Source: Cyanobium sp. PLM2.Bin73
GTDB lineage: Bacteria; Cyanobacteriota; Cyanobacteriia; PCC-6307; Cyanobiaceae
Assembly (NCBI GenBank): GCA_007694915.1
Contig: REEV01000083.1
Span: forward strand, 1-45,963
Length of the DNA: 45,963 bases
Direction of reading: 5' to 3'
Part shown: positions 10,838 to 37,617 of the stretch, piece by piece
Layout of the letters: the number at the start of each line of letters is the position of its first letter
Numbering within the stretch: the first letter of the stretch is position 1
Notes under the pieces: model-generated
The model's input: only the letters and a program-made list of their open reading frames with translations
What the model was told of the DNA's origin: nothing
Database searches by the model: none
Made by a program: the position numbers and the translations under genes

Positions 10838-13800
10838 ACGGGCGGACGGCGATGACCAGGACGGAGTTCAGCGAGCGCCACCTGGGCCCGGGTGCCTCCG
10901 AGCAGGCCCGGATGCTGGCCGAGCTGGGGCTGGACAGCCTGGAGCAGCTGGCCGAGCAGGTGGTGCCGGCCGACATCCTGCTGCCCCCCGAGGCCGCCGC
11001 CGAGGGCTTGCCCAAGCCCTGCGACGAGGCCCTGGCCCTGGCCGAGCTGGCCGCGATCGCCGCCCGGAATCGGGTGGTGCGATCGCTCATCGGCCAGGGG
11101 TACTACGGCACGGCCACCCCGGCGCTGATCCAGCGCCATGTGTTCGAGAACCCTGCCTGGTACACCGCCTATACCCCCTACCAGGCCGAGATCGCCCAGG
11201 GCCGCCTCGAGGCCCTGCTCAACTTCCAGACCCTGATCAGCGAGCTCACCGGCCTGCCGATCGCCAACGCCTCCCTGCTCGATGAGGCCACCGCCGCCGC
11301 CGAGGCCATGGCCCTGGCCCGGGCGGTCTGCGGGCGGCCCGGCGCCGCCCGCTTCCTGGTGGACCGCCAGGTGTTCCCCCAGACCCTGGCGGTGCTGCAG
11401 ACCCGGGCTGAGCCCCTCGGCATCAGCCTGGAGCTGGTGGACGCCGAAGGCCTGGCCACCCAGGCTGCCGCCGGCGATGTGCCGGCCCTGAGCGCCGATG
11501 CCTTCGGTCTGCTGCTGCAGCTGCCCGGCGACCGCGGCCGGCTCTGGGATCCGGCGCCGCTGCTGGCCGCCGCCGGCGAGGCCGGGCTGATCCGGGCCGT
11601 GGCCATCGATCCCCTCGCCCAGGTGCTGCTGGCGCCGGTGGGCGAGCTGGGGGCCGACATCGCCGTGGGCAGCGCCCAGCGCTACGGCGTGCCCATGGGT
11701 GGCGGCGGCCCCCATGCGGCCTTTTTCGCCACCCGTGAGGCCTACAAGCGCCAGATCCCCGGCCGCCTGGTGGGGCGCTCCCGCGATGCCGAGGGCCGCC
11801 CGGCCCTGCGCCTGGCCCTGCAGACTCGCGAGCAGCACATCCGCCGCGACCGGGCCACCAGCAACATCTGCACCGCCCAGGTGCTGCTGGCGGTGATGGC
11901 CGGCTTCTACGCCGTGCACCACGGTCCGGATGGCCTGGCGGCCATCGCCGCCCGCATCGCCCGCCTGCGCCAGGCCCTGGTGGCGGCCCTGGCGGCCCTG
12001 GGCCTTGAAAGCGAAGCCGGTCCCGGCTTCGGCACCGTGGTGCTGCCCGCCGCCGATCCCGACGGCCTGCTAGCCGCCGCCCTGGCCGGCGGCTTCAACC
12101 TGCGCCGCCACCCGGATGGGGTGGGCATCAGCCTCGATGAGTGCAGCGGCGTGGCCGAGCTGCGCCAGCTGCTGGCGGCCCTGGCGGGAGCGCCGGGTGC
12201 CGGCGCCCCTTCAGCCACCGGCGCCCCAGCCGCACCCGTGCCGACCGCCCTGGCCGCCGCCTGGGATGCCCTGGAGCGGGCCCTGGAGCAGCCTGATCAG
12301 CTCTGGCAGCAGGCCTGGCAGGGCGGCTCCAGCCCCCTGCCCCGCCGCCAGGGACCCTGGCTGAGCCAGCCGGTGTTCCACCAGCACCGCAGCGAAACCG
12401 AACTGCTGCGCTACATCCAGCGCCTGGTGGCCCGCGATTTCTCCCTGGTGCACGGGATGATCCCGCTGGGCAGCTGCACCATGAAGCTCAACGCGGCGGC
12501 CGAGCTGCTGCCGGTGAGCTGGCCCGCCTTCGCCCAGCTGCACCCCTTCGCCCCCGCCGACCAGCGGGCCGGCTACGGACGCCTGGCGGCCGAGCTGGAG
12601 CAGTGGCTGGCGGCGATCACCGGCTTCGCCGGCGTGTCGCTGCAGCCCAACGCCGGCTCCCAGGGGGAATACGCGGGCCTGCTGGCGATCCGCGCCTGGC
12701 ACCGCAGCCGCGGCGAGCAGCACCGGGACGTGTGCCTGATCCCCACCAGTGCCCACGGCACCAACCCGGCCAGCGCTGTGATGGCGGGGCTGCGGGTGGT
12801 GGCGGTGGCCTGTGACGGGCAGGGCAACGTGGATCTGGCCGATCTGGAGGCCAAGGCCGACGCCCACGCCGGTCGACTGGCAGCCCTGATGGTCACCTAC
12901 CCCTCCACCCACGGGGTGTTCGAGCCCGCCATCCGCCGCATCTGCGCGCTGGTGCACGAGCGCGGCGGCCAGGTGTACCTCGACGGCGCCAACCTCAACG
13001 CCCAGGTGGGGCTGTGCAAACCGGGGCTCTACGGGGCCGATGTCTGCCACCTCAACCTGCACAAGACCTTCTGCATCCCCCATGGCGGCGGCGGACCGGG
13101 GGTGGGGCCGATCGCCGTCGCCGCGCACCTGCTGCCCTTCCTGCCCGGGGCCCCCGGCGAGCACGGGGCGGCGGTGGGGCCGGTGGCGGCGGCGTCCCTG
13201 GGCAGCGCCTCGATCCTGCCGATCAGCTGGATGTACATCCGCATGATGGGCGGTTCCGGCCTGCGCACCGCCAGCCAGGTGGCCCTGCTGGCCGCCAACC
13301 TGATCGCCGAGCGGCTCCAGCCCCACTTTCCGGTGCTCTATCGCGGCAGCGGTGGAGAGGCGGGTCGGGGCCGGGTGGCCCACGAGTGCATCCTCGATCT
13401 GCGGCCGCTCAAGCGCAGCTGCGGTCTGGAGGTGGACGACCTGGCCAAGCGCCTCATGGACTACGGCTTCCATGCCCCCACCGTGAGCTGGCCGGTGGCC
13501 GGCACGGTGATGGTGGAGCCCACCGAGAGCGAATCCCTGGCGGAACTCAACCGCTTCTGCGCCGCCATGATCGCCATCCGCGCCGAGGCGGCTGCCATCG
13601 AGCGGGGCGAGGCCGACTCCCTCGACAACCCTCTCAAGCGTGCTCCCCACACCCTGGCGGCGCTCACCGCCGAGGACTGGGGGCGGCCCTACACCCGGGC
13701 GCAGGCCGCCTTCCCGGCGGGGGAGGAGCAGCGGCAGCAGAAGTTCTGGCCGGCGGTGGCCCGGGTCGACAACGCCTATGGCGATCGCAACCTGGTGTGC

Positions 13801-13893
13801 ACCTGCCCGTCAGTGGAGGAGCTGGCGGAGGTCGACTCGGTGGAGGATGGCCGGCCCGCCGCTCAGGCCGATCCGGCCGTGGCCCTGGCCTGA
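10834..13893 (+). CDS. gcvP: Glycine dehydrogenase (decarboxylating), P protein
   Basis: This PLP enzyme decarboxylates glycine and passes the aminomethyl group to lipoyl-GcvH. The product is 1,019 residues: the single-chain form with two homologous aminotransferase-like halves. The N-terminal half begins at [17 protein letters not shown] and includes [20 protein letters not shown]. The C-terminal half has [49 protein letters not shown] and the PLP lysine in [20 protein letters not shown] near residue 743. It overlaps gcvH by four bases. ATG 10834 is used; ATG 10852 six codons later is a possible alternative. The last 30 residues are variable, acidic and Ala-rich. The PLP lyase upstream may be cotranscribed. 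Confidence 0.97.
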
Positions 13894-14031
13894 GGGCGAT
13901 CCGGGGCCATAATGTGCCCGGGCGAACCTGAAATCCTCAGGTTTTCTTTGGTACCTGGCCCTTGCCGTTGCGGTCCCCTTGTGGTGCAACTGCAACGGCC
14001 AGCTACTTGTCCGCTTTCCGGTGTGTGGATC

Positions 14032-14244
14032 ATGAACGGCAGTACTTCAGGCGGACCGCCCTCCGGCCGTGATGCCAGCGGCGGCACCAGCTCAGGCACC
14101 AGCTCAGGCACCAACGTGGTGCGGGTGCCGTTCGGCGTGCGCCGCGCCCGCCGCAGCCGTCCGGCCCGGCCCGAACGCTGGGCCACCGTGGTGCTGCCCT
14201 TCCAGAGCGGCAGCGATCCCACCCCGCCGCCCCAGGCGGCCTGA
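14032..14244 (+). CDS. Small basic protein with Ser-Gly-Thr repeats
   Basis: The product is about 70 residues from ATG 14032 (MNGSTSGGPPSGRD). The N-terminal third is a low-complexity Ser/Gly/Thr linker containing SSGTSSGT; the middle is strongly basic ([20 protein letters not shown]); the end is WATVVLPFQSGSDPTPPP. I do not recognise a family, but the organised basic core and conserved-looking WATVVLPFQ suggest a real small protein. An upstream in-frame ATG at 13912 would add 40 residues but lies only 19 bases from the gcvP stop. The spacer 13894-14031 may hold its own promoter; I could not identify one with confidence. Convergent with flv1 across 29 bases. Confidence 0.5.
   Translation: MNGSTSGGPPSGRDASGGTSSGTSSGTNVVRVPFGVRRARRSRPARPERWATVVLPFQSGSDPTPPPQAA
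14083..14113. repeat. 12-base tandem repeat inside the small basic protein
   Basis: GGCACCAGCTCA occurs twice perfectly (14083-14094, 14095-14106) followed by a partial third copy. It encodes the GTSSGTSSGT linker and is an obvious site for length variation between strains. Confidence 0.75.
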
Positions 14245-32213: not shown

Positions 32214-33698
32214 ATGGCAGGGCAGGCAGCTGGGCAAGGCGACTGGGAGGCCGTGATCGGCCTGGAGACCCACGTGCAGCTGGACACCGCCAGCAAGATC
32301 TTCACTTGCGCTTCCACCACCTTCGGCGACGACCCCAACACCCACATCGATCCTGTGGTGTGCGGTCTGCCGGGCACCCTGCCGGTGCTGAATCAGAAGG
32401 TGCTGGAGTATGCGGTGAAGGCGGCGATGGCGCTCAACCTGCAGATTGCCAAGCACAGCAAGTTTGACCGCAAGCAATATTTCTACCCCGACCTGCCCAA
32501 GAACTACCAGATCTCCCAGTACGACGAACCGATCGCGGAAGACGGCTGGATCGAGGTGGAGGTGGCCGAAAAGGGCAAGGAGACCTACACCAAAACGATC
32601 GGCATCGAACGCCTGCACATGGAGGAGGACGCCGGCAAACTCGTGCACGCCGGCAGCGACCGCCTGGCCGGCTCCACCCATTCGCTGGTGGACTACAACC
32701 GCGCCGGCGTGGCCCTGGCGGAGATTGTCAGCAAGCCGGATCTGCGCACCGGCCGCGAAGCCGCTGAATACGCCGCTGAGATCCGCAGGATCATGCGCTA
32801 TCTGGGCGTGAGCGACGGCAACATGCAGGAGGGTTCGCTGCGCTGTGATGTGAACATCTCGGTGCGGCGCGGCCCCGAGGCCCCCTTCGGCACGAAGGTG
32901 GAAATCAAGAACATGAACTCGTTCTCCGCCATCCAGAAGGCGATCGATTACGAGATCCAGCGTCAGATCAAGGCCTACGAGGCCGGTGAGCCGGTGGTGC
33001 AGGAAACTCGTCTCTGGGACGAGGGTAAGCAGCTCACCAAGAGCATGCGTTCAAAAGAAGGCGCCAGCGACTACCGCTACTTCCCCGATCCCGATCTCGG
33101 TCCGATCGAGGTGGGCGCCACGCTGCGCGAGGGCTGGCGGGCCGAGCTGCCGGAGCTGCCGGCCGCCAAGCGCCACCGCTATGCCGAGCAGCTGGGCCTT
33201 TCCCAGTACGACGCCCGCGTGCTCACCGACGAACGGCCGATGGCCGACTACTTCGAGGCCGTGGTGGCCGCCGGTGCCGACCCCAAGGCGGCGGCCAACT
33301 GGATCAGCGGCGACATCGCCGCCCATGTGAACGCCAACCGGCTCTCCTACGCCGAGCTGCCCTTCCGGCCCGAGCAGCTGGCGGAGATGGTGGGGATGAT
33401 CGAGGGCGGCGTGATCAGCGGCAAGATCGCCAAGGAGATCCTGCCAGAACTGCTGGAGCAGGGCGGCTCCCCGAAGGCGCTCGTGGACGAGCGCAGCCTG
33501 GGCATGATCAGCGACCCCGCGGCGATCACGGCGATTGTGGAGGAGCTGCTGGCCGCCCATCCTGAGGAGGTGGAGGCCTTCCGCGGCGGCAAGACCAAGC
33601 TGCAGGGCTTCTTCGTGGGTCAGCTGATGAAGCGCACGGGCGGCAAGGCCGACCCCAAACTCGCCAACCAGATCCTCAACCAGAAGCTCAAGAGTTGA
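32214..33698 (+). CDS. gatB: Asp-tRNA(Asn)/Glu-tRNA(Gln) amidotransferase subunit B
   Basis: This is the tRNA-binding and kinase subunit of GatCAB, which converts Glu-tRNA-Gln (and Asp-tRNA-Asn) to the amidated form. The product is 494 residues, the normal length. Landmarks are WEAVIGLETHVQLDTASKIF, CGLPGTLPVLN, FDRKQYFYPDLPKNYQISQ, HMEEDAGKLVH, SLVDYNRAGVALAEIVSKPD, SDGNMQEGSLRCDVNISVR, GTKVEIKNMNSFSAIQKAI, SKEGASDYRYFPDPDL and the helical tail with GFFVGQLMKRTGGKADPKL. ATG 32214 is the start. It stands alone, as gatB usually does in cyanobacteria, and is divergent from thiO. Confidence 0.97.
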   Translation: MAGQAAGQGDWEAVIGLETHVQLDTASKIFTCASTTFGDDPNTHIDPVVCGLPGTLPVLNQKVLEYAVKAAMALNLQIAKHSKFDRKQYFYPDLPKNYQISQYDEPIAEDGWIEVEVAEKGKETYTKTIGIERLHMEEDAGKLVHAGSDRLAGSTHSLVDYNRAGVALAEIVSKPDLRTGREAAEYAAEIRRIMRYLGVSDGNMQEGSLRCDVNISVRRGPEAPFGTKVEIKNMNSFSAIQKAIDYEIQRQIKAYEAGEPVVQETRLWDEGKQLTKSMRSKEGASDYRYFPDPDLGPIEVGATLREGWRAELPELPAAKRHRYAEQLGLSQYDARVLTDERPMADYFEAVVAAGADPKAAANWISGDIAAHVNANRLSYAELPFRPEQLAEMVGMIEGGVISGKIAKEILPELLEQGGSPKALVDERSLGMISDPAAITAIVEELLAAHPEEVEAFRGGKTKLQGFFVGQLMKRTGGKADPKLANQILNQKLKS

Positions 33699-33746: not shown

Positions 33747-34724
33747 ATGGCCGCGGCGGCCGTGGTCGGCAACGACTCCTTGCAGACCCTGGGCACATTT
33801 CTCAGCAGCAACCGCGGGCGCACGCCGTTGCCGGCTCAGATGGCGTTCCTGCTGGGGCTTACGGCCGTGGTGCTGGGCCTGGGCTGGTGGCTCAACGGTG
33901 GGGATCCGGCCTGGGGTCGGCTGGCCCAGTTCCCCCTCCCGGACGCCATCGGCTGGATCGACCTGCTGCCTCCCCTGGCGGTGCTGCTGCTCACCCGCTG
34001 GGGCGCGCCGGTGAGCACCTCGGTGCTGTTGCTCACGGCCATCGCCCCCGCCAACGCGGGTCCGGTGCTGCTCCGTTCGCTGATCGGCTACGGCCTGGCG
34101 TTCGCTACCGCGCTGCTGCTCTACGGGGCTGTGCTGTGGCTGCTGGAGCGGCCGTTGCTTGACGCTCAGCACAGCGGCGAGCCGGAGCCAGAACTGACTG
34201 GCGTCGCTGCTGCGGGCCTCGAGCCAGGCGACGCAGCGGATGCGCCCCGGTGGCTGGTGCTGCAGTGGCTGTCCACCGCCTGGCTGTGGAGTCAGTGGCT
34301 GGTGCACGACCTGGCAAACATTTTCATTCTGCTGCCCCGCCAGCTCCAGGCCTGGCAGCTGGGACTCTCGGCCGCCGCGCTCGGCGGCGGCCTGTGCGCC
34401 CTGGTGGCCTGGGGCGGGGGGCCGATCCAGCGGATGGTGCAGGACAAGGTGAACACCAGTCATCTGCGCTCCGCCACCCTGATCGATCTGCTGTTCGGGG
34501 CCCTGCTGCTGGCCCTGGCCCGGTTCAGCCCCACGCCCCTGAGCACCACCTGGGTGTTTCTGGGCCTGCTGGCCGGCCGCGAGCTGGGCCTGCTGCTGCG
34601 CCTTCGGCACCGACCGGCGCTGGAGGTGGGGGCGGTGCTGGTCGGCGACCTGGGGAAGGCCTCGCTGGCACTGGCGCTGAGCCTGGCGGTGGCGCTGCTG
34701 ATCCAGCCCCTCAAGGCGCTTTAG
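33747..34724 (+). CDS. PiT-like polytopic membrane protein
   Basis: The product is about 325 residues with roughly eight hydrophobic segments. It distantly resembles PiT-type phosphate permeases: GNDSLQTLGTFLSSN near the N-terminus is in the position of the PiT GANDxxNAxGT signature, and WLVHDLANIFILLPR resembles the second, inverted copy. PVSTSVLLL and LSTTWVFLGLLAGRE resemble the PiT VSTTH motif. Actual transport is unproven. ATG 33747 cuts the first hydrophobic segment: the same frame upstream (WIQPGWIQATAFV) continues the helix back to the gatB stop at 33696-33698 without an ATG, GTG or TTG. A CTG or ATT start, or a mutated start, is therefore possible. The 3' end overlaps the convergent DUF2236-CoaE gene by 14 bases. 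Confidence 0.65.
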   Translation: MAAAAVVGNDSLQTLGTFLSSNRGRTPLPAQMAFLLGLTAVVLGLGWWLNGGDPAWGRLAQFPLPDAIGWIDLLPPLAVLLLTRWGAPVSTSVLLLTAIAPANAGPVLLRSLIGYGLAFATALLLYGAVLWLLERPLLDAQHSGEPEPELTGVAAAGLEPGDAADAPRWLVLQWLSTAWLWSQWLVHDLANIFILLPRQLQAWQLGLSAAALGGGLCALVAWGGGPIQRMVQDKVNTSHLRSATLIDLLFGALLLALARFSPTPLSTTWVFLGLLAGRELGLLLRLRHRPALEVGAVLVGDLGKASLALALSLAVALLIQPLKAL

Positions 34725-36276
34725 CCGGACCGAATGAACCCTGCCCCAGTCTCCGGTCCCTCAGCGCCCGCTCCACCTCCACCGCCAGCCGATCCGGCCC
34801 GCCCCTGTTGTCGATCACCCAATCGACCAGGGGGCGCTTACGAGCGAGGGGCCACTGGGCGGCGATGCGGGCACGGGCCTCGCTGTCGCTGAGGCCATCG
34901 CGCACCACCAGCCGTTGCAGCTGCTGGGCTTCATCGCAGTCCACCAGCCATACCTCGCTGCACAGCGATTCCAGCTCGGCCTCGAACAGCAGCGGAATCA
35001 TCAGCACCACCACCGGCGCCGCGGCCAGCCGCTGCAGCTCCGTGGCAAACCGCTCCCGCACCAACGGATGCACCAAACGCTCCAGCCACTGGCGTTCAAC
35101 GGCATCGGCGAACACAATCCGTCCCAGGGCCGCCCGATCAAGGGCGGGAGGCGCCATGTCGGCACCATCGCCCGGGCCCGGGGTCGCCCGCACCGGTTCC
35201 CCGTAGCGCTCCAGCACCTCCAGCGCCCCCGCGCTGCCCGCGGCCAGGGCCTCGCGGGCGTACGCATCGGCATCCAGCACCGGCAAGCCCCGGGCCGCCA
35301 CCAGTGCCCCCACGCTGCTCTTCCCCGAGGCGATGCCGCCGGTGAGGCCAATGCGGCGCTGGCGGCCGGTCCAGCGGGGGCGGTTGAGGCGCTCCAGCAT
35401 GGCGGGCGGCCCCAGCTGCTCGAGCCTGAAGCTGCTGCCGTAGCTGGGGGTGGGACGCTCCGAGTAGAAGCGGCTTCCCTGCGGCGGCCTCAGCCGCTGC
35501 CAGCGGTTCAGCAGCAGGCTGCGCAGCCGCAGGCCAGACCGCACCAGGGTGCGCAGCACTCCGGAGGCTGCGGGCCAGCCCAGCGGCATCGCCAGCTCCG
35601 GCTCGACCACCGCCTGCAGCAGACCCCGCACGGCAGGCCGCAGCGGCTCGGGCCAGTCCGAAAGCAGCATCGCCAGCGTGGCGTCAGCCACGCGCCGGTT
35701 GCTGGCGGCCGGCCGGAAGAGCTCCCGCTCCACCCGCGCGTTGAGGGCCAGCAGGCCGTCCAGGCTGGCGGGAATGGCGCCGATCCCCATGCGCCCACCC
35801 ACATGGCGCCAGAAGCGGAACAGCGCCTGCCGCTCCTCGGGCCGCAGGGGCCGCCAGCCGTAGCGCTCCAGCCAGCGGATCGGCTCGGCCACGAAGGTGC
35901 TGAGCACGTAGAGGAAGTCGTCGTTGGTGATTGCGTAGGCGCCGTGGATGCGGTTCATGCGGCTGATCACCGCCGCACCGGCCGGGCTGTCGGGGCTGTG
36001 GCGCAGCAGTTCCGCCACCATCAGGCCGGTGTCGTCGTAGCGCTTGCGCGGCCGCTGCTGGAATTCCCCCGTGCGGCTGAGCAGCCCGGAGATCGAGGGC
36101 AGGCAGAAGGTCTTGAGCAGGGCCAGCTCCAGGGAGCGGGTGATGTCCCAGGGGAACAGCACGCCGGCCAGCCGCTTGCAGATCGCCACAGCCTCGGCAT
36201 CGAGCTCGGCATCGAGCTCGGCATCGAGTCCTCCCTCCAGATCGGCCCCTCCCCCCAGAGCGCCGCGAGCATCCAT
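34711..36276 (-). CDS. coaE: Fused MpaB-type oxygenase-like domain (DUF2236) and dephospho-CoA kinase
   Basis: A single uninterrupted frame encodes about 521 residues. Residues 28-290 resemble the DUF2236/MpaB-rubber-oxygenase catalytic domain (FPWDITRSLELALLKTF, SRMNRIHGAYAITNDDFLY, TFVAEPIRWLERYGWRPL, FWRHVGGRMGIGAIP). Residues about 306-521 are CoaE, which phosphorylates dephospho-CoA in the last step of CoA synthesis: Walker A IGLTGGIASGKSSVG near 312, LDADAYAREAL, LVHPLVRERF, LMIPLLFEAELESLCSEVWLV and a QLQRLVVRDGLSDSEARARIA lid. The join SSFRLEQLGPPAMLERLNRP has no stop; the Met there could start a separate CoaE. Elsewhere CoaE is a stand-alone protein of about 200 residues, so either this is a true fusion or two overlapping products. 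ATG 36276 follows from homology; the open frame further upstream is antisense to argJ. Confidence 0.8.
   Translation of the reverse strand: MDARGALGGGADLEGGLDAELDAELDAEAVAICKRLAGVLFPWDITRSLELALLKTFCLPSISGLLSRTGEFQQRPRKRYDDTGLMVAELLRHSPDSPAGAAVISRMNRIHGAYAITNDDFLYVLSTFVAEPIRWLERYGWRPLRPEERQALFRFWRHVGGRMGIGAIPASLDGLLALNARVERELFRPAASNRRVADATLAMLLSDWPEPLRPAVRGLLQAVVEPELAMPLGWPAASGVLRTLVRSGLRLRSLLLNRWQRLRPPQGSRFYSERPTPSYGSSFRLEQLGPPAMLERLNRPRWTGRQRRIGLTGGIASGKSSVGALVAARGLPVLDADAYAREALAAGSAGALEVLERYGEPVRATPGPGDGADMAPPALDRAALGRIVFADAVERQWLERLVHPLVRERFATELQRLAAAPVVVLMIPLLFEAELESLCSEVWLVDCDEAQQLQRLVVRDGLSDSEARARIAAQWPLARKRPLVDWVIDNRGGPDRLAVEVERALRDRRLGQGSFGPAKAP
36193..36228. repeat. Three perfect 12-base tandem repeats in the 5' end of the DUF2236-CoaE gene
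   Basis: CTCGGCATCGAG occurs three times head to tail (36193-36204, 36205-36216, 36217-36228), encoding the repeated tetrapeptide LDAE on the minus strand just before the conserved domain. Each unit is twelve bases, so length changes keep the frame. Confidence 0.85.
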
Positions 36277-36349: not shown

Positions 36350-36376
36350 ATGGCCCCAGTGGCGGCCCCGCATTGA
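36350..36376 (+). other. Eight-codon upstream ORF overlapping the argJ start
   Basis: ATG 36350 opens MAPVAAPH and stops at TGA 36374-36376, which overlaps the argJ TTG start as TTGA. This mimics the ATGA coupling seen elsewhere in the window and could help ribosomes use the weak TTG start. It may also be chance; no strong Shine-Dalgarno precedes it. Confidence 0.3.
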
Positions 36377-37617
36377 CCCACCCCTGGCACCCGATCCCCG
36401 GTGGCATCACCGCCCCGGCCGGCTTCCGGGCCGCGGCCGTCACCGCCGGCCTCAAGCCCTCCGGCAATCCCGATCTGGTCCTGCTGCTGGCCCCCGAGGG
36501 CGCCGTGTGCGCCGGCACCTTCACCACGTCGCTGGTGCGGGCCGCCTGCGTGGACCTCTGCGCCGAGCGCCTGGCGGTCAGTGGCGGCCACGCCCGGGCG
36601 GTGCTGATCAATTCGGGCCAGGCCAACGCCTGCACAGGTGAGCGGGGCCTGGCCGACAGCCTGCGCGCCACCGCGGCCACGGCAGGGCGCCTGGGCCTGC
36701 GCCCCGAGGAGGTGCTGATCTGCTCCACCGGCGTGATCGGCGTGCCGATCCCCATGGACCGCCTGGAGGCCGGCCTCGATCCCCTGGTGGCGGCCCTCAG
36801 CCCCCACGCCGGCCCGGCGGCAGCCCGGGCGATCCTCACCACCGATCTGGTGGACAAACAGATCGCCCTGGAGGCCTCCCTCCGCGGCCGCACGGTGCGC
36901 ATCGGCGGCATGGCCAAGGGGTCGGGGATGATTCACCCGGCCATGGCCACGATGCTGGGCTATCTGAGCTGCGATGCCGGCGTGCCGGCTGAGCTCTGGC
37001 AGGCGATGGTGAAGCGGGCGGTGGAGCGTTCCTTCAACGCGATCACGGTGGACGGCGACACCAGCACCAACGACACGTTGCTGGCCTTTGCCGCCGGCGA
37101 CTCCCTGCCCCCGGAGCACCTCGAGGCGTTGGAGGCCGGCCTGACGGAGGCGCTGCAGCACCTGGCGCGCGCCATCGCCCGCGACGGTGAGGGCGCCACC
37201 TGCCTGATCGAGGTGCAGGTGGAGGGTGCGGCCGATGGGGCCGGCGCCCGCGCCATCGCCCGCACCGTGTGCGGTTCGTCGCTGGTCAAGTGCGCCGTGC
37301 ACGGCCGCGACCCCAACTGGGGCCGGATCGTGGCCGCCGCCGGCCGGGCGGGTGTGGGCTTTCACGCCACTGCCGTGGCCCTGTGGCTGGGAGACCACCA
37401 GCTGATGGCCGCTGGCGAGCCGCTGGCCTTCGACCGGCCGGCCGCCTCCGCCTACCTGCGCGAGCGCGCCGCCGGCTCCTACCTGGGCGGCAGCGGCCCG
37501 GGCGGTGACACCGTGCTGATCCGCCTGCGGGTGGGCGACGGTCCCGGCCGCGGCGTGGCCTGGGGCTGCGACCTCTCTGATCAGTACGTGCGCATCAACG
37601 CCGACTACACCACCTAA
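36373..37617 (+). CDS. argJ: Bifunctional ornithine acetyltransferase / N-acetylglutamate synthase
   Basis: ArgJ recycles the acetyl group from N-acetylornithine to glutamate in arginine synthesis. It is made as a precursor that cleaves itself before a conserved Thr. The product is 414 residues. Landmarks are HPIPGGITAPAGFRAAAV, FTTSLVRAACVD, LINSGQANACTG, ICSTGVIGVPIPMDRLEAGL, IGGMAKGSGMIHPAMATML (autocleavage between Ala and Thr of MATML near residue 192), NAITVDGDTSTNDTLLAFA, GSSLVKCAVHGRDPNWGRI and the C-terminal QYVRINADYTT. The best start is TTG at 36373 (THPWHPIPGG follows); no ATG precedes the conserved region in frame. A tiny ORF (36350-36376) ends overlapping this TTG. Confidence 0.95.
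   Translation: MTHPWHPIPGGITAPAGFRAAAVTAGLKPSGNPDLVLLLAPEGAVCAGTFTTSLVRAACVDLCAERLAVSGGHARAVLINSGQANACTGERGLADSLRATAATAGRLGLRPEEVLICSTGVIGVPIPMDRLEAGLDPLVAALSPHAGPAAARAILTTDLVDKQIALEASLRGRTVRIGGMAKGSGMIHPAMATMLGYLSCDAGVPAELWQAMVKRAVERSFNAITVDGDTSTNDTLLAFAAGDSLPPEHLEALEAGLTEALQHLARAIARDGEGATCLIEVQVEGAADGAGARAIARTVCGSSLVKCAVHGRDPNWGRIVAAAGRAGVGFHATAVALWLGDHQLMAAGEPLAFDRPAASAYLRERAAGSYLGGSGPGGDTVLIRLRVGDGPGRGVAWGCDLSDQYVRINADYTT

Follow-up and report, generated by a model that had tools for sequence, protein, structure and literature searches.

The window analysed here, a 45,963-nucleotide stretch of Cyanobium sp. PLM2.Bin73 DNA that makes up contig C122 (REEV01000083.1) of a 2.7-Mb genome, contains at the cyanobacterial argJ-coaE-gatB locus one open reading frame (34711-36276, minus strand; ATG start at 36276) which encodes, in 521 amino acids and with no internal stop codon, an MPAB_Lcp_cat (DUF2236) oxygenase-like domain followed by dephospho-CoA kinase (CoaE). 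This fusion is confirmed as a real, conserved gene architecture of small cyanobacteria. The reading that we favour, and consider reasonably probable, is that the gene produces a two-domain protein with an N-terminal haem oxygenase and a C-terminal CoaE, in which two enzymes are tethered, the kinase being essential and the oxygenase dispensable but under purifying selection. The features of the gene are as follows.

34711-36276, minus strand: fused open reading frame, 521 residues; homologous along its length to frames in 26 of 400 Cyanobiaceae genomes
35491-36195, minus strand: oxygenase core, residues 28-262, helical and of globin type, MPAB_Lcp_cat/DUF2236; PF09995 at 53.2 bits, with model and fold matches
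36028-36042, minus strand: Arg79-Tyr-Asp-Asp-Thr83 motif, invariant in 41 of 41 homologues; aligned to KRADDT of 8s1j
35944-35946, minus strand: His111, candidate proximal haem ligand (His198 of Lcp), invariant in 41 of 41 homologues; aligned to the His of NKIH of 8s1j
35383-35490, minus strand: oxygenase C-terminal tail, residues 263-298, ..RFYSERPTPSYG..LEQLGPPAMLERLN, conserved in stand-alone homologues
35398-35400, minus strand: internal in-frame ATG, Met293; Met at the equivalent place in 12 of 25 fusions
35353-35382, minus strand: junction, residues 299-308, RPRWTGRQRR, like the N-terminus of relatives' stand-alone CoaE
34801-35352, minus strand: CoaE domain, residues 309-492, P-loop GLTGGIASGKS; profile and fold matches

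Distribution of the fused gene

The 400 Cyanobiaceae genomes were surveyed by counting as a full fusion any alignment that began at residue 30 or before and reached residue 377 or beyond. A match was obtained in 349 genomes and a full fusion in 26, spread over eight genera, so that the other DUF2236-CoaE fusions envisaged in the preliminary description of this DNA do exist. In G675 and G564 the match breaks off short of the kinase's end. One TGA is reported for each of G009, G422, G517 and G473; in G009 it is the codon that terminates the gene, and in G422 the frame is open across the two domains. When 60 relatives were searched, the fusion was present in 7 of the 13 genomes of the genus, the window's own included, while G006 and G007 of the same genus carry CoaE without the oxygenase domain and four more (77-94% complete) gave no match. 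Among the matches listed for the best 80 of 453 relatives, the fusion occurs in Cyanobium sp. CH-040, Cyanobium sp. ATX 6A2, Synechococcus sp. WH 5701 and others. Of the 26 family genomes with a full fusion, G002, G286 and G541 are single-contig assemblies.

With the window counted and duplicates removed, 27 of the fetched loci contain both parts, and in every one of them a single stop-free frame spans the two; it should be noted that 'fused' was itself defined by the open frame. A stop codon in the linker of relatives was looked for and none was found, and no fetched locus showed an oxygenase gene and coaE as two separate adjacent genes. The possibility that the gene is a lone product of an assembly or frame error joining two neighbours, raised in the preliminary description, is therefore hardly credible, considering that the same frame recurs in 26 genomes, including one-contig assemblies and named strains. 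The 64 genomes of the class outside the family that gave a match have an open frame of at most 365 amino acids there and hence are not fused, and no coaE match was obtained in 38 fetched loci from outside the family (L118-L156 without L125).

The two domains and their junction

Scanned alone, the N-terminal part (35377-36216) matched PF09995 (MPAB_Lcp_cat) with 53.2 bits (E 5.6e-14, cut-off 23). With the frame open and both domains recognised by profile, the first description of an uninterrupted MpaB/DUF2236-CoaE fusion stands. PF09995 was not reported when the whole window protein was scanned with Pfam, either at E<=0.01 or at E<=10. This looks like an effect of the HMMER filters, because both families were scored in one protein for five other fusions, whose sequences were scanned beginning with the homologous part, and because the window copy deviates at one place only from the columns that are at least 90% conserved. 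Strong divergence of the domain as the cause was considered and dropped, since the miss vanishes when the domain is scanned alone. NCBIfam gave no name for the domain. Near the N-terminus, the 12-mer CTCGGCATCGAG occurs three times exactly (36193-36228) and codes for LDAE three times; the three copies are not found in G012 and G005.

A profile, a structural model and a conservation count were built on 41 aligned homologues of the N-domain. The model has a mean predicted local distance difference test score (pLDDT) of 92.9 and a predicted template modelling score (pTM) of 0.90. Searched against the sequences of the PDB, the profile found trans-anethole oxygenase (8s1j, E 3.3e-12), with KRYDDT and NRIH of the window protein lying over KRADDT and NKIH. 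The same enzyme was retrieved by a fold search with the model (8s1j_B, E 2.3e-5), and fold comparison gave Z 24.3 for 8s1j_A (root-mean-square deviation 2.6 Å, 258 residues aligned) and Z 19.5 for the latex-clearing protein Lcp (5o1m_A, 251 residues aligned); globins followed at about Z 9-10, far under the oxygenases. R79, T83 and H111 are invariant in all 41 homologues. By our own count, the Arg-x3-Thr spacing equals that of Arg164 and Thr168 in Lcp, and Thr83 is 28 residues from His111 compared with 30 in Lcp; the equivalence of residues is thus based on spacing for Lcp and on alignment for 8s1j. In Lcp, the exchange Arg164Ala leaves no residual activity and Thr168Ala leaves 2%, and His198 is the proximal haem ligand (PMC5522427). 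For Nro1, a recent member of the family, a spectrum has been described that suggests b-type haem (PMC12724181). From the fold, the invariant signature, the Lcp mutants and the Nro1 spectrum we infer, as the best explanation, that the N-domain is a globin-fold oxygenase of the MpaB, Lcp and trans-anethole oxygenase group which would bind b-type haem and most likely use O2 to cleave a C=C bond of a hydrophobic substrate.

The oxygenase core evolves under purifying selection, the ratio of nonsynonymous to synonymous divergence (dN/dS) being 0.07-0.50 in ten pairs. Over the tail and the junction, which offer few sites, dN/dS reaches 1.04 and 0.94, respectively, in single pairs.

The kinase half (residues 309-492) matches PF01121 with 165 bits (E 1.4e-48, profile positions 3-176 of 180) and the CoaE equivalog model TIGR00152 with 147.1 bits against a curated cut-off of 65.55. 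The P-loop GxTGGIxSGKS and the DAD motif, which we take to be those of CoaE, are intact in the window, and most of their residues are invariant in 25 aligned fusions. Foldseek placed the domain next to 9dug (E 8.9e-11) and E. coli CoaE (1n3b_B, E 1.2e-10). Against PRK03333, presumably the NCBIfam model of mycobacterial CoaE with its C-terminal UPF0157 domain, the protein scored 138.6 bits, below the cut-off of 215, and aligned with positions 3-193 of 395, i.e. with the kinase part only.

The genome of the window has a single PF01121 match, which is the fusion, and the same holds for G002, G010 and G286. A second coaE is present in G004, G541 and G615 as fragments, with changing frames or a stop, about 10 kb or less from the fusion (L068:11901-12086; L178:6733-7330; L177:9271-9547 and 13784-14059), accompanied by gatB fragments in L068 and L177. 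These broken copies fit the decay of a redundant gene while the fused one serves, although in the single-contig assembly G541 a sequencing error is a possible source of the break. On the profile evidence, no dephospho-CoA kinase other than the C-terminal half is recognisable in the cell, and this half is predicted to convert dephospho-CoA to CoA with ATP.

The stretch around 35385-35420, at first taken for a linker between the domains, turned out to belong to the oxygenase, as a piece of its conserved C-terminal tail: it encodes part of LGPPAMLERLN, and stand-alone homologues carry the equivalent near their C-terminus (LGPPQMLPKLN in G037). In the N-domain model the tail is folded with the domain (ten-residue mean pLDDT 80-92); in the model of the whole fusion, residues 267-299 have pLDDT under 50. 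The following junction, RPRWTGRQRR, resembles the start of stand-alone Cyanobiaceae CoaE proteins. Since the oxygenase tail is present and the junction is like a CoaE N-terminus, the two genes were joined nearly end to end.

The tail also contains Met293, which had led to the proposal that an internal start yields a stand-alone CoaE beside or instead of the fused protein. The ATG at 35400 does exist and has GGGG upstream, Met is found at this place in 12 of the 25 aligned fusions, and two more (L062 and L090) have TTG, a possible start. However, the codon is CTG, CAG or CGG in the remaining fusions (in L109 the Met lies instead within a shortened junction), and ten of the 25, L062 and L090 among them, have no Met within the 45 residues before the kinase; moreover, Met293 belongs to the conserved oxygenase tail, and this explains its presence. 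The internal start was rejected as a conserved feature and seems unlikely overall, but it may be used in the organism of the window itself.

Proposed history of joining, exchange and loss

The history that would best account for these data begins with an oxygenase gene that is free-standing in other bacteria. It would have become attached, probably in one event and with the two genes nearly abutting, to the 5' end of coaE in the argJ-coaE-gatB locus; later, some lineages would have lost the fusion, and recombination would have exchanged it. The two activities would share expression and dosage without regulating each other. The fusion could also protect the oxygenase frame against decay: any stop or frameshift in it would cost the cell the essential kinase too, and loss would be expected to occur by in-frame deletion or by resetting of the start.

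Such a loss is seen in G006. Leader and oxygenase tail, as known from its fused relatives, are still present in the CoaE frame, but the core is gone: the 43 nt at L066:5312-5354 correspond to 790 nt in L098 and L099, so that on balance 747 nt (3 x 249) are missing. G006 is therefore an in-frame deletion fossil, and the fusion has been lost again in at least one lineage; G007 is compatible with the same expectation. Since both genomes have CoaE without the oxygenase domain, the kinase does not need it. G538 (MPDRLNGTRW) and G468 carry no more than possible relict tails, whereas the tail in G441 stops at a contig end and may belong to a cut fusion. Free-standing copies of the oxygenase can decay, as judged from the three broken ones looked at: L065:5785-6231 (G164) has a stop in the active-site motif and a truncation, L114 one nonsense codon and L125 a frameshift.

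As for the number of joining events, the N-domain tree (55 rows) groups 19 free-standing Cyanobiaceae copies in one clade (98/97.8), and once L114, a free marine copy, is counted with the fused N-domains, the tree is compatible with one origin for them (approximately unbiased test, p-AU 0.129). The oxygenase part seems to have joined once. Synonymous divergence (dS) was lower in the N-part than in the CoaE part in 209 of 300 pairs, strongly so in some (0.12 and 0.47, respectively, for L085-L103), and this inequality suggests recombination within the fused gene. The present scatter would reflect losses together with exchange, in proportions that the trees do not separate.

Several results weigh against the picture drawn here. 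Without L114, a clade of fused N-domains was rejected (p-AU 4.9e-6), and the wider N-domain tree, in which two loci at contig ends were counted as free, requires five changes of the fused/free label. A single fused clade was likewise tried and rejected in the CoaE, gatB and argJ trees (p-AU 6.8e-5, 5e-89 and 1.8e-39), where the label changes 13, 8 and 12 times, respectively. The model of the whole fusion, built on 25 sequences (pLDDT 78.1, pTM 0.50), does not confidently predict an interface between the domains. Finally, reading-frame protection is a deduction: that none of the 27 fused loci is broken follows partly from the definition of 'fused' by the open frame, and the broken free copies looked at number only three.

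Six of the free-standing copies (L087, L091, L097, L100, L102 and L111) have another C-terminal extension, ..TEDGWIIEARVTKD..LLERVIAS, after the MPAB domain; Pfam at E<=0.1 found nothing in it for L087 and L097. At seven loci with free-standing copies, no shared neighbour was seen by eye among the genes called by a simple script.

Function of the fusion and known systems

As was suggested at first, the fusion does link CoA synthesis physically with an oxidase-like protein; a functional tie would be no more than a possibility, given that G006 and G007 have the kinase without the domain. For the fused proteins, mere tethering is what we infer, with purifying selection on the oxygenase core that exceeds what reading-frame protection alone would give.

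The most interesting rival is regulation by the haem domain, which as a globin-like sensor would set kinase activity according to O2, redox state or the supply of haem and thereby couple CoA synthesis to the oxygen or photosynthetic state. The globin-type fold would suit such a role, as would the conservation of the junction residues among fusions. Nevertheless, globins match far less well than oxygenases, the Arg/Thr pair needed for Lcp catalysis is invariant in addition to the haem ligand, the whole-fusion model gives no confident interface, and two genomes of the genus manage without the domain; we consider this reading quite unlikely. A broader alternative, namely that the gene is either a haem-gated CoA kinase, whose activity is set by O2 or redox sensing, or a natural case of gene entanglement, where translation ahead of an essential kinase keeps a dispensable oxygenase from decay, appears doubtful, although it carries appreciable weight.

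The N-domain might instead be a folding or solubility partner of the kinase, for which there is a precedent in the UPF0157 domain of mycobacterial CoaE, as reported in PMC2765170. This is improbable, considering that the kinases of G006 and G007 lack the domain and that an invariant oxygenase active site would be superfluous in a domain acting only as a chaperone. Slightly more improbable still is a metabolic pair, in which the acid or aldehyde made by the oxygenase is subsequently activated with CoA and tethering raises the local CoA supply. MpaB-type cleavage does yield an aldehyde and an acid, as described in PMC12724181, but the product of CoaE is CoA and not an acyl-CoA, and the direct neighbours in the window are argJ and an unnamed frame before gatB, with no acyl-CoA ligase. 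The named genes of the locus are as follows.

36373-37617, plus strand: argJ, divergent neighbour, TTG start inferred; PF01960, E 7.6e-136
32214-33698, plus strand: gatB, convergent neighbour on the flank opposite argJ; domain match and relatives' loci

The start of argJ at 36373 seems to be TTG, there being no in-frame ATG just upstream of the conserved start. argJ was matched in every fetched fused locus but L116; it does not lie next to the fusion in all of them, the distance being about 4.5 kb in L062 and L081. Between argJ and the start of the fusion, L099 (5915-5942) and L071 (5741-5766) have a perfect inverted repeat, GGCAGGATG / CATCCTGCC, with an 8-nt loop, which was not found in the searched stretches of the window, L077 and L078. 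The unnamed frame (33747-34724, plus strand, 325 amino acids, no Pfam match) runs tail to tail into the fusion, with which it shares 14 bases, and among the fetched loci it was matched only by the nearest relative (L069/L077, one genome), in pieces.

The fusion, a domain architecture around an essential enzyme that none of the papers searched describes, is kept in named strains and offers a way into a group of bacterial haem oxygenases that has received little study. The presence of fused, free, deleted and relict states in one family represents a natural experiment on the origin and loss of fusions to essential genes and on the protection of a passenger frame. In the literature searched, which is short of most subscription papers, no paper was found on DUF2236 with dephospho-CoA kinase or on dephospho-CoA kinase and an oxygenase in Cyanobium; a search for MPAB_Lcp_cat gave nothing, and one for MpaB oxygenases in cyanobacteria only a different MpaB. 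The parts are known, and their combination was not found in the papers searched.

Among the known systems, trans-anethole oxygenase (8s1j) of the MpaB family is the closest in fold, over 258 residues (Z 24.3), and shares the KR-x-DDT and N-x-IH motifs; it is only 18-19% identical in the fold alignments and is a stand-alone enzyme. Lcp (5o1m, 5o1l) shares the fold (Z 19.5) and, by spacing, the Arg-x3-Thr and His signature; it differs in its 13% identity and in being larger and extracellular (PMC5522427). The position of its distal Lys167 is occupied, again by spacing, by Asp in the window protein. The free-standing MPAB_Lcp_cat proteins of other cyanobacteria and of Rhodococcus are 43-51% identical to the N-domain, in many cases tail included, but are not fused. 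On the kinase side, mycobacterial CoaE-UPF0157 likewise combines CoaE with an extra domain, although it is another domain at the other end of the kinase. The bifunctional CoA synthase, whose mouse structure (2f6r) is among the fold matches of the kinase, also has CoaE as its C-terminal half; there, however, CoaE is joined to the enzyme that acts just before it in the pathway and not to an oxygenase.

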